Assembly: GCF_013085465.1 (NCBI RefSeq)
Contig: NZ_CP049838.1
Coordinates: forward strand, 2,728,001 to 2,792,000
Length of the DNA: 64,000 bases
Direction: 5' to 3'
DNA from: Streptomyces asoensis
Lineage (GTDB): Bacteria > Actinomycetota > Actinomycetes > Streptomycetales > Streptomycetaceae
Numbering within the stretch: the stretch's first letter is position 1; each line of letters starts with the position of its first letter. Below the pieces are notes generated by a model. The model saw only the letters and a list, made by a program, of their open reading frames with translations. It was not told the origin of the DNA and did no database searches. This document shows, piece after piece, positions 33,232-35,713 of this stretch. Both the position numbers and the translations under genes were made by a program.

Positions 33232-33421
33232 GGAGCTCCTGTCGGGGCGAGGGCGGGGGTGTGCCTTCGGGCGACGGTGGCCGGGGCTTGTCAGCTGTGA
33301 GCTGTGGTGTCCACGGTACGGGGCGGTCTTGGAGAGGTGGGGGCGGTTACGTTTCAGCGAGGTGACGGCCGGCCCGAATCCCGCGTTCTTTATGAACGCA
33401 AGGCCGGAAACGGGAGCGGGA
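33232..33421. other. Gap between FUSC start and the RNA terminator
   Basis: Part of a 532-bp gene-free stretch (33232-33763). It holds the presumed FUSC promoter and a perfect short hairpin GCGTTC-TTTAT-GAACGC at 33383-33399. No coding signal was seen. Confidence 0.6.
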
Positions 33422-33444
33422 CCGGGGGCGTAGCCTGCCCCCGG
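33422..33444 (-). terminator. Terminator downstream of the tRNA-like RNA
   Basis: CCGGGGGC, 7-nt loop, GCCCCCGG: a perfect 8-bp stem that can be extended by three G-C pairs after one mismatch. On the minus strand it follows the RNA element by about 40 nt and is followed by a C/T-rich run. It separates the RNA from FUSC. Confidence 0.7.
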
Positions 33445-33484
33445 CCCCTGTGGAGCCACCCATGTCACACGCCGGCGCACTTGA

Positions 33485-33592
33485 GGACCCAGGTCAGTCG
33501 TGATGTCGTCGCGTCCTGCCTTTGGACCACCGCGCATCGAGCTGCGCGGGCCGGACTTGAACCGGCATTTCGACGTCCGGGGGCCTGGGCCC
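33485..33592 (-). ncRNA. Circularly permuted tRNA-like RNA (novel candidate)
   Basis: Read on the minus strand, all tRNA helices are present but the two halves are swapped. First: anticodon-stem strand CGTCG (33571-33575), 4-nt variable loop AAAT, T stem GCCGG/CCGGC with loop TTCAAGT (33550-33566), acceptor strand CCGCGCA (33543-33549). Then a 6-nt loop (33537-33542). Then acceptor strand TGCGCGG (33530-33536), TG, D stem GTCC/GGAC with loop AAAGGCA (33513-33527), G, anticodon-stem strand CGACG (33507-33511). Acceptor 7/7, D 4/4, anticodon 5/5 and T 5/5 pairs form, and the invariant T8, A14, G18G19, A21 and TTCRANY are met. No CCA is encoded. The flanks GGGCCCAGGCC (33582-33592) and GACCTGGGTCC (33485-33495) can extend the anticodon arm. 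Hairpins on both sides suggest a separate transcript. Function unknown. Confidence 0.75.
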
Positions 33593-33730
33593 GGTCGCTC
33601 CGGCGATCGGCGGCGAATGCTGAGTCTGGAGCGAGAGTCTGAGATTCATCGCGATCCGTCCCTGAATTGCTCGGCGGGTACGGTTCGCTCGTCACGACAA
33701 GCTTCAGCTTCAGCTTGCGCTCCTCGCGCA

Positions 33731-33752
33731 CCCCGGTCACTGAGGACCGGGG
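33731..33752 (-). terminator. Terminator after the DUF7873-like gene
   Basis: CCCCGGTC, 6-nt loop, GACCGGGG: perfect 8-bp stem, starting 11 bp after the stop of the gene at 33764. It isolates the RNA element from upstream transcription. Confidence 0.75.
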
Positions 33753-33763
33753 AGTCTCGAAGG

Positions 33764-34495
33764 CTACCCGAACAGATAGCCGAACACGGCGTCACCGACC
33801 CGCTGGTCGACGACGTCGGCGCCGTTCGCCTCCTCCCGGGCGAACTTCACCGCCTGCTGGACCTTCTCCAGGCGCGCCAGGAGTTCGTTGACCCGGCGGG
33901 CGGGAAGGGCCCCCGAGAACTTCACGGTCGTCCAGTAACCGACCGGCACGTCCTCGTAGTACACCTCGACCTGCGCCGGGTGCTTGTCGGTCGCCTCCGC
34001 CTTCACATGGTTGCGCGGCACCTTCTTGGTGCGCAGCGTCCGTACCGGCTCGGTCTTCCACGCGTCGGTGGACGGGTCCTGCGCCCAGGACTCGGAGGCG
34101 TCGAGCACGGGCAGCCTGCGCACGAAGGCGCTCAGATCGACGAGCTGCTTCTCGAGGAAGAGCAGGTAGGACACCGGTACTTCGGCGACGAGAACACGGC
34201 CGTCGACCTTCACATCGGCGCGGGCGGTGCAGTTGGCCCAGTCCTTCGTGGCGGTCACGTCGAACAGCCGGGTCAGCGTGGCCGCGGTCTCCCGCAGCAC
34301 GTCCTCGGCCTTCACCTGCACCCGTGTCGACTCGGGCGGCAGCTGCTCGCCCTCCTCGTCCTTGGGCTGGTAGCTCCGCGAGATACCGGCCAGCAGCGCG
34401 GGCTTCTGGAGTCCGTGCTGAGCCGTGCTCAGGTCCTGGTGGGCCTTGGACTTGATGCCCTTCTCGACTGCGATGATCTGATTGAGTTTCGCCAC
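33764..34495 (-). CDS. Conserved hypothetical protein (DUF7873-like)
   Basis: 243-aa soluble protein. It starts VAKLNQIIAVEKGIKSKAHQ at GTG 34495 and continues through a helical N-terminal part to a beta-rich core (VDGRVLVAEVPVSYLLFLEK, VEVYYEDVPVGYWTTVKFSG) and a C-terminal helix with EELLxRLEKVQQAVKFAREEAN-like heptads. It is widespread in actinobacteria as far as I recall, but has no assigned function. The family name is from memory and could be wrong; coding is not in doubt given the even third-position GC and the terminator just after it. Confidence 0.82.
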   Translation of the reverse strand: MAKLNQIIAVEKGIKSKAHQDLSTAQHGLQKPALLAGISRSYQPKDEEGEQLPPESTRVQVKAEDVLRETAATLTRLFDVTATKDWANCTARADVKVDGRVLVAEVPVSYLLFLEKQLVDLSAFVRRLPVLDASESWAQDPSTDAWKTEPVRTLRTKKVPRNHVKAEATDKHPAQVEVYYEDVPVGYWTTVKFSGALPARRVNELLARLEKVQQAVKFAREEANGADVVDQRVGDAVFGYLFG

Positions 34496-34536
34496 GACGA
34501 GGACGGTAGCGGCTCCGACGGCATCACCCCAAAGGG

Positions 34537-35316
34537 TTATTGACCGAAGAGACGGCCGGCCCTTCCCAACGCCTCCCCCAGTTCGCCGGGACCGGACCCG
34601 CGGAGTTCCGCGACGATGCCGTCGACACCCCGCAGTCCGGCCCGCTCCAGCAACCGCTTCTCGTTCGTCACCCACTCCCCCCGCGCCGCGAGCACGCCGT
34701 GGCCCGCCTGTACGGCGGCGGTGACGAGGGCGCCGGCGACCTCCGCGAGACGGCCTGCCGGGGCATGGTTGGCCAGGGCGTAGTCGAGGGTGGCGCGGGC
34801 CGTCCCGTGCCAGCGCTCGGCCGCCGTCCGGCGCAACCTGTCCGGATACCTTTCCGGGCGCGGGAGTTCACCGCTGAGCACCTGGTTGATCGCCAGCTCG
34901 GCGACCACGAGATAGCTCGGGATCCCCGCGAGATGGAACAGCAACGGCTCCACCCGGAACCGCCCCTCGGCCGCCTCCGCCCACTCGTGTTCGACGACGT
35001 CGAGATCCCGGTAGTGCACGTCGACCCGCCGCCCCTCGATCGTCAGCCAGGCACCCCCGTTGAACACCCCGCCACCCCAGCCGCCGACCTCCGACACCTC
35101 CCCCTCCCAGCCGAGCGCCCGCAGGCCGGCCGGATCGAAGGAACCCCGGTAGTAGACGGCCAGGTCCCAGTCGCTGTCGGGACGGTGGGTGCCCTGGGCA
35201 CGGGAACCGCCGAGGGCGACTGCGCGGACGTGAGGGAGACCGGCGAGGCGGAGAGTCACGTCGCCGAGGAAGTCCCGGTCGTCACCGCAGAGGGAAAGGG
35301 CGGAGGCGGGGGTCAT
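34537..35316 (-). CDS. Nucleotidyltransferase-domain protein
   Basis: 259-aa minimal nucleotidyltransferase (Pol beta superfamily). Active-site motif GGSRAQGTHRPDSDWDLAVY at residues about 36-55 gives the GS and the DxD metal ligands; the third Asp is in RRVDVHYRDLD. A helical C-terminal half (ERWHGTARATLDYALANHAP) resembles aminoglycoside adenylyltransferase-like and DUF4037-type proteins. Nucleotide and acceptor are unknown. ATG 35316 was chosen where the domain begins; the longer ORF has no ribosome site. Ends 41 bp before the start of the next gene on this strand. Confidence 0.87.
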   Translation of the reverse strand: MTPASALSLCGDDRDFLGDVTLRLAGLPHVRAVALGGSRAQGTHRPDSDWDLAVYYRGSFDPAGLRALGWEGEVSEVGGWGGGVFNGGAWLTIEGRRVDVHYRDLDVVEHEWAEAAEGRFRVEPLLFHLAGIPSYLVVAELAINQVLSGELPRPERYPDRLRRTAAERWHGTARATLDYALANHAPAGRLAEVAGALVTAAVQAGHGVLAARGEWVTNEKRLLERAGLRGVDGIVAELRGSGPGELGEALGRAGRLFGQ

Positions 35317-35329
35317 GAGCGAATTCCGA

Positions 35330-35713
35330 TCAGCAGTCCCACACGTTCCGGTGACGGTGGCGGGTCGGCGGGTGATCCAGGTCCTCGGCCGCGGAGAGCA
35401 GCGCGCCCGACGGGGCGGCGCGGAGCTCATTGCGGGCGGTCGAGCGGAACACGGACAGCGCGGCACGCGCACGGGACTCGTACGGGCCGTCGATCCGCGC
35501 GTTCAGGGACCGGGGAAAGGTGTAGGAGCGGAACGCGCACACCAGCGGGACGGGTACCGGCCGACGCCGCTCGCGCCGCGCCCGGGCCAGCTCCCGTGCG
35601 CTGTAACGGAGTTCGCCGAGACGGTGGCCGGTGCTCCAGCCCCAGCGCTGGGACGGTCGGTCATCAGGCCGGACGCGGTGCCGCAGACGGACGTGGTGGA
35701 CGGTACGGGACAT
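35330..35713 (-). CDS. Hypothetical basic protein
   Basis: 127-aa protein rich in Arg and His (MSRTVHHVRLRHRVRPDDRP). The middle has GHRLGELRYSARELARARRE, a probable helix, and the end PPTRHRHRNVWDC. A ribosome site, GGAGGTC, precedes ATG 35713. No membrane segment. Stop lies 13 bp before the nucleotidyltransferase start, so the two are likely one operon. I recall similar small basic proteins in other Streptomyces, without function. Confidence 0.75.
   Translation of the reverse strand: MSRTVHHVRLRHRVRPDDRPSQRWGWSTGHRLGELRYSARELARARRERRRPVPVPLVCAFRSYTFPRSLNARIDGPYESRARAALSVFRSTARNELRAAPSGALLSAAEDLDHPPTRHRHRNVWDC

Follow-up and report, generated by a model that had tools for sequence, protein, structure and literature searches.

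Several tRNA-like RNAs are known in which the two halves of the transfer RNA (tRNA) have exchanged places. In the permuted tRNA genes of algae and archaea, the 3' half precedes the 5' half, and these genes yield tRNAs with an anticodon. In permuted two-piece transfer-messenger RNA (tmRNA), the halves of the tRNA-like domain are swapped, with a segment between them. The bacterial Y RNA YrlA is likewise described as a circularly permuted tRNA mimic, its crystal structure superposing on tRNA with a circular permutation (PMC11472068); the basal stem holds Ro60/Rsr, and the tRNA-like part binds PNPase (PMC8394870). A phage Ro60 (TROVE) protein is also thought to pair with a tRNA-like RNA (PMC7824862). 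A predicted RNA of related layout is encoded in Streptomyces asoensis, on the minus strand of a 64,000-nucleotide stretch of contig NZ_CP049838.1 (positions 2,728,001 to 2,792,000; hereafter the window), beside the gene for a protein of the DUF7873 family.

This RNA resembles each of these systems in part. It shares the 3'-half-first order of permuted tRNA genes but has no anticodon loop, and it shares the swapped-half tRNA-like domain of two-piece tmRNA but has no tag frame that can be recognized by eye. With YrlA (RF02553; PDB 6CU1), it has in common a permuted tRNA core with D, T and acceptor arms, a closed acceptor stem and a long basal stem, yet it adjoins DUF7873 rather than rsr. The pairing of a protein with a tRNA-like RNA recalls phage Ro60, whereas the DUF7873 protein has 243 residues and no TROVE or vWA domain at E 0.001. 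The view in a preliminary description of the locus that nothing like it is known is too strong, given the permuted superposition of YrlA on tRNA. Comparison between relatives supports a permuted tRNA-like RNA under selection. The reading favoured here with moderate confidence is that the element is the permuted-tRNA module of a predicted noncoding RNA kept beside DUF7873, likely as a scaffold for DUF7873 and a tRNA-recognising protein.

The permuted tRNA core

Direct reading of the window confirms the permuted core reported in the preliminary description. It is complete on the minus strand between 33575 and 33507, with 21 of 21 helix pairs formed and with T8, A14, G18, G19, A21 and TTCAAGT, including the D- and T-loop bases of the elbow, kept. 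The core sits within a two-part flank helix, P2 (33605-33584 with 33493-33470, minus strand). The flank pairing noted earlier, GGGCCCAGG with CCTGGGTCC (33592-33584 with 33493-33485), is present and is joined by a further, lower helix, which lies outside the coordinates originally given and makes the element longer than first described. There is no anticodon loop in the element, as the anticodon-stem strands run on toward the long helix P2 on both sides, and the earlier suggestion of a split-then-ligated tRNA accordingly lacks support. The RNA was overlooked both by ARAGORN, which predicts no tRNA anywhere in the window, and by Rfam, which reports no family there at gathering score. This includes tmRNA, for which no conserved start-to-stop frame was seen by eye in the flanks; the beta_tmRNA matches at loci L048 and L049 are only weak and partial (24.8-25.1 bits). 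Single-sequence folding reproduces the core with modest significance (z = -2.17; as stable in 7 of 200 shuffles), and the case thus rests on comparison between relatives.

A BLAST search with a 201-base query, which is independent of pairing, detected matching sequence in 34 of the 61 genomes; the matches include short and partial ones. Covariation was assessed on 28 BLAST-found relatives aligned by MAFFT without structure (alignment A4), with L026 and L027 left out because they have no end anchor. The named structure is paired in 92.1% of cells on these relatives, against at most 47% for slid structures. Changes on both sides that preserve the pair are seen in 163 cells; shuffles give 54 and slid structures no more than 28. 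Double changes occur at 22 of 36 pairs, a count that 0 of 500 shuffles attain. Of five covariation measures, four are higher than in any of the 500 shuffles; the exception is further pair types, for which 232 of the 500 score as high. Unaided, RNAalifold recovers the flank helices together with the acceptor, T and D stems but misses the anticodon stem, and its structure has double changes at 21 of 33 pairs. The bases T8, G10, G18, G19, A21, T54, T55, C56 and A58 are invariant in all 28 relatives.

The anticodon stem pairs in just 55.7% of cells in this alignment, probably due to misaligned neighbouring spacers. It is paired in 36-42 of 43 viral sequences, a set picked by a detector that requires pairing (viral and phage unit pairs from 45 loci, L064 excluded, of which 43 are distinct). 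Compensation had been expected in all stems and in the flank helix. It is found in the acceptor, T and D stems and the flank helix, whereas for the anticodon stem it is clear only in the detector-chosen viral set.

A strict layout detector (score >18.5) finds a single match in 825,568 bases of Streptomyces flanking sequence (counting both strands) and a single one in 932,300 bases of shuffled downstream sequence, a background of about one match per 0.8-0.9 Mb. Together with the excess of pair-preserving changes, this bears out the earlier judgement that a chance match is unlikely. That the element is a chance fold or the remnant of tandem tRNA genes has negligible probability. Tandem tRNA genes do produce the same half order (control locus L211), but the covariation, the low detector background and the conservation of the flanks in phages and hosts all speak against such an origin. 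A tandem-tRNA relic, one of three origins offered in the preliminary description, is contradicted by conservation and rejected on the covariation in the 28 relatives.

DUF7873 and the distribution of the RNA

The RNA had been placed in an otherwise empty intergenic gap. The gap is the 3' side of the DUF7873 gene, which lies directly upstream on the same strand; its open reading frame (33764-34675) matches PF25283 at E 1e-117, the only Pfam match at E 0.001. The tie between the two was assessed with a covariance model, R1, built from 28 chromosomal copies with no viral sequence included. In a search of genomes of the kind that the preliminary description had advised, R1 matches of at least 60 bits fall in exactly the 32 of 61 genomes that have DUF7873; gene and RNA each occur at 33 places. 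R1 was trained on 28 of these RNA places, and the other 5 lie outside the training set. The next-best R1 matches reach 51.8 bits and cover the part of the model that tandem tRNA genes match. All 32 positive genomes belong to Streptomyces or to one other family of the same order, and in one of the genomes (G038), DUF7873 is present twice, each gene accompanied by a copy of the RNA (3313871 and 6402497). More widely, DUF7873 occurs in 7 of 396 genomes of a phylum-wide sample, all Streptomyces, and in 73 of 50,697 phage records. The family is large: of the 7,999 best candidates that were scored, 7,219 are homologues. It is named in no open-access PMC paper, and none of these papers joins 'Y RNA', 'Streptomyces' and 'tRNA-like'.

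The association extends to viruses. A copy of the RNA was found no more than 2 kb from DUF7873 in 75 of the 80 viral contigs analysed (the best 80 among 324 relatives found), in 80 of 80 chromosomal contigs (79 titled Streptomyces, some from the same genomes as among the 61) and in 12 of 13 fetched phage loci, some of them closely related to one another. All 80 chromosomal contigs carry at least one unit downstream of DUF7873. Among the viral contigs, 65 have the RNA by R1 and 10 more by the structural detector. The R1 cut-off was at least 53 bits here because tandem tRNA genes reach 48.5 bits (L211) and similar places 51.8; L093 (46.5 bits) is counted only via the detector. No RNA was found in the viral contigs L065, L066, L111, L106 and L124, the last two of which end within ~130 nt of the gene. 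Phage loci with at least one permuted unit come from phages of Arthrobacter, Gordonia (3), Rhodococcus, Pseudanabaena, Klebsiella (2), Vibrio and Rhizobium (3); in the more remote of these, R1 scores do not reach that of the tandem-tRNA control, and it is the detector alone that identifies the units. In a Microcoleus phage (L047:3450-3659), a HEARO RNA (129 bits) fills the gap after DUF7873 where others carry the RNA.

The second of the two modules that make up the full form of the RNA usually starts ~0.1-0.3 kb after DUF7873 on the same strand, as would suit a cis-acting element of the 3' untranslated region that controls or stabilises the DUF7873 messenger RNA. Such a role is very improbable, as the RNA lies upstream of DUF7873 in L110 and on the opposite strand in L123. 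The tie to DUF7873 survives both arrangements, which speaks for an RNA acting in trans. A -10-like TANNNT motif at the DUF7873 stop also argues against a 3' untranslated element: within -3 to +34 of the stop, the motif occurs in 47 of 79 chromosomal loci versus 17 of 390 background windows, and in 30 of 75 viral loci versus 80 of 367. In the window, the motif reads TAGCCT, where a sigma-70 scan finds no full promoter for the RNA.

The spread of the RNA in phages would also fit a decoy or shield against tRNA-damaging toxins and nucleases, a phage counter-defence retained by some hosts. In 36 of the 80 viral loci, ordinary tRNA genes are found no further than ~2 kb away, and a nucleotidyltransferase-like gene adjoining DUF7873 upstream (34537-35472, minus strand) weakly matches the PADLOC candidate defence model PDC-S09 (E 9.7e-7). 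We consider this explanation unlikely, however, given that the RNA offers no anticodon loop as bait for anticodon nucleases, that the pair is kept in 32 of 61 genomes, all from Streptomyces or one other family of the same order, and that DUF7873 itself has no defence-model match. Chromosomal neighbours of DUF7873 differ by clade, and the commonest flanking family has homologues at 26 other loci of 80; a fixed larger operon has no support, since the neighbours vary between clades.

The DUF7873 protein was modelled with AlphaFold2 from an alignment without L090 (stop), L108, L121, L123, L126, L128 and eight phage-collection rows. The model is confident (mean predicted local distance difference test score 92.5) but has no informative match in PDB or among viral models, nor does the sequence in sequence searches, which does not amount to a new fold. 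A low-scoring viral-model match is A0A7M1RW91, an uncultured phage protein (TM 0.46/0.60, E 0.07). Across 44 DUF7873 sequences, 14 basic positions are occupied by K or R in at least 85%, a pattern compatible with RNA binding but not proof of it. Through its tie to the RNA, this large family of unknown function gains a likely partner and a testable job.

Relation to YrlA and a proposed scaffold role

One alternative is an ordinary Y RNA of the YrlA type, a partner of Ro60 (Rsr) and PNPase whose gene simply stands away from rsr. The permuted layout is the same, RF02553 aligns full-length to the RNAs of relatives (30.9-38.7 bits at four loci), the S. asoensis genome has a TROVE (rsr) gene, and DUF7873 and TROVE are associated over the 61 genomes (p 0.01). 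However, this rsr gene lies ~116 kb from the present RNA with its own YrlA-like RNA beside it (L210), 9 of the 32 genomes carrying the present RNA have no TROVE match, and among the 52 genomes of the order, DUF7873 shows no association with TROVE (p 0.24). The matches listed at the element's loci in relatives reach at most 38.7 bits, short of the gathering threshold of 69 bits, and in the window RF02553 has no match at gathering nor up to E 5. A control locus of tandem Asn-tRNA genes (L211; G000 3407000-3407700) scores 36.9-41.3 bits under the YrlA model and 48.5 bits under R1, so that sub-threshold YrlA matches alone prove little. The gathering criterion is itself weak, as Ro-linked RNAs likewise miss it (40.7-58.4 bits, best of L210, L212 and L213). 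R1 gives five matches to Ro-linked RNAs, of only 33-37.5 bits, one spanning the whole model. The present RNA further differs from YrlA in the two modules of its full form, in the CCA often encoded in phages, and in its flank internal loops, ATCGACC and CTTAAACG, which by eye depart from the RF02553 consensus. On balance, an ordinary Y RNA is improbable; the separate rsr-linked RNA and the nine genomes without a TROVE match are the reasons for which the present RNA is not filed as YrlA. Both DUF7873 and TROVE occur in the control genome of Deinobacterium chartae.

It is instead proposed to work like a Y RNA, by analogy and not as a class assignment. Judged from sequence, the RNA is best read as a Ro60-independent, Y-RNA-like scaffold for DUF7873, and gene and RNA likely form one RNA-protein machine that imitates tRNA. 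Such an RNA would be produced from a promoter of its own, and its conserved flank helices would be bound by the DUF7873 protein, with P2 and the corresponding helix of the first module, P1, together with their internal loops, as putative binding sites. The tRNA-shaped end may recruit or occupy a tRNA-recognising protein, and the elbow would be the part that this target reads. The finding suggests that the Y RNA trick of imitating tRNA through a circular permutation is also used outside Ro60 systems, and by phages that infect actinobacteria, proteobacteria and cyanobacteria. A regulatory mimic was the nearest of the three options in the preliminary description, which lacked DUF7873, the second module and the phage distribution; its overall interpretation is partly supported.

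Module architecture, acceptor ends and further features

In its full form, the RNA has two modules. Of 88 loci from viruses and phages, 46 contain two units spaced 110-300 nt apart, and 77 have one or more units with a score over 18. Module 1 consists of strand a, permuted tRNA unit 1 (its D arm usually GCCC...AGGC) and strand b, and module 2 of the ATCGACC loop, permuted unit 2, the CTTAAACG loop and a closing helix. In viral loci, cognate P1 strands a and b form 21.0 pairs versus 12.8 when swapped between loci (p 1e-5), and cognate P2 strands 20.5 versus 12.5 (p 2e-8), an advantage that holds in both modules, though not at every locus. Among Streptomyces loci with both anchors (4 of 80 had none and were left out), the T arm of unit 1 is present in 46 of 76 and absent in 30. 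In these 30, the flank strands remain, and in 29 of them the short insert folds as a hairpin of at least 6 pairs; that the flanks are kept where the T arm is lost indicates that they likely have a function of their own. The window belongs to the reduced type, and one single tRNA mimic remains in it (Table 1). Terminators had been reported on both sides of the RNA, but the consensus scan finds no T-run terminator, and downstream there is a strong 12-pair hairpin that has no T run.

Table 1. Coordinates of the DUF7873 gene and the features of the predicted RNA in the window
Feature	Position	Strand	Basis or remark
DUF7873 protein gene, 243 aa, GTG start 34495, stop 33766-33764	33764..34495	-	PF25283; predicted to partner the RNA
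TAGCCT, possible -10 element (TANNNT) of predicted RNA promoter	33761..33766	-	Overlaps DUF7873 stop codon
5' G+C-rich hairpin CCCCGGTC...GACCGGGG	33731..33752	-	Direct reading; similar hairpins by eye in Streptomyces relatives
P1 strand a GGAGCGCAAGCTGAAGCTGAAGCTTGTCGTGA, 5' side of module 1	33692..33723	-	GGAGCG pairs with CGCTCC of strand b in predicted fold
Plain 11-pair hairpin in place of first permuted tRNA unit	33651..33688	-	Predicted fold
P1 strand b and linker CTCAGACTCTCGCTCCAGACTCAGCATT	33616..33643	-	Conserved among aligned relatives
P2 lower helix, 5' strand CGCCGG	33600..33605	-	100% of cells paired in 28 relatives; double changes at 4/6 pairs
P2 internal loop, 5' side AGCGACC (ATCGACC in many)	33593..33599	-	Kept in chromosomes and phages
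P2 upper helix, 5' strand GGGCCCAGG	33584..33592	-	94% of cells paired; double changes at 6/9 pairs
Anticodon stem, 3' strand CGTCG	33575-33571	-	Direct reading; pairing in relatives as in text
T arm GCCGG-TTCAAGT-CCGGC	33566-33550	-	100% of cells paired; invariant bases as in text
Acceptor stem and loop overall	33530..33549	-	100% of cells paired; double changes at 6/7 pairs
Acceptor 3' strand CCGCGCA	33549-33543	-	Direct reading
Acceptor loop GCTCGA, 6 bases	33542-33537	-	Direct reading
Acceptor 5' strand TGCGCGG	33536-33530	-	Direct reading
T8, G9 and D arm GTCC-AAAGGCA-GGAC	33513..33529	-	97.3% of cells paired; invariant bases as in text
D stem GTCC/GGAC with loop AAAGGCA	33527-33513	-	Direct reading
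Anticodon stem, 5' strand CGACG	33511-33507	-	As for CGTCG strand
P2 upper helix, 3' strand CCTGGGTCC	33485..33493	-	Pairs with GGGCCCAGG; same covariation count
P2 internal loop, 3' side TCAAGTGCG (TTAAACG in most aligned viral loci)	33476..33484	-	Alignments of relatives
P2 lower helix, 3' strand CCGGCG	33470..33475	-	Pairs with CGCCGG across internal loop; covariation count
12-pair G+C-rich hairpin without T run, predicted transcript end	33418..33448	-	Fold -29.8 kcal/mol, z -4.46

The acceptor ends bear on a further explanation, that of a multi-piece, chargeable tRNA-like RNA whose acceptor loops are cut, whose CCA ends are exposed and onto which amino acids are loaded, as in two-piece tmRNA. 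In the set of 43 distinct pairs from viruses and phages, 21 first and 16 second units encode CCA precisely at tRNA positions 74-76, and C74 is present in 39 of each; elsewhere in the same acceptor loops, CCA is found at 3 of 327 places (first units) and 23 of 821 places (second units). This placement is a hint that the phage versions may be opened at the acceptor end. A chargeable RNA is nonetheless unlikely. The window copy has a six-base acceptor loop without CCA, the freely varying acceptor-stem pairs of the viral set include no constant identity pair and so speak against a fixed amino acid identity, and no conserved tag frame is seen by eye. The period-six YTNANN pattern in strands a and b of unrelated phages (L062, L067, L118, L129 and others) reads as alternating Lys/Arg-Leu codons. 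As a coding peptide or tag, this KLKL-like pattern was rejected, as it is at least partly due to the a-b pairing and has no conserved start or stop by eye. More ambitiously, DUF7873 and the RNA might form a second, Ro60-independent class of tRNA-mimic ribonucleoproteins common to phages and actinobacteria, in which the phage RNA would be cut at both acceptor loops into a three-piece, two-acceptor, CCA-ended chargeable molecule that enters the translation machinery; this combination is quite unlikely, slightly more so than charging by itself.

Some automated annotations of these loci also merit mention. In the 80 chromosomal loci (L130-L209), ARAGORN makes 34 calls within the first 700 bases beyond the gene; among the 12 calls listed, most are tRNA-Phe(gaa) over the 5' part of the RNA and are probably false. 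In Klebsiella phage FBKp24, an annotated tRNA-Sup-TTA (L217:2818-2897) lies mostly between two permuted units and is likely a misreading of the RNA. In Gordonia phage Phendrix, a region with no annotated feature (L043:572-1100) matches tmRNA (RF00023, 89 bits, E 2.4e-33) and is an apparent tmRNA gene.
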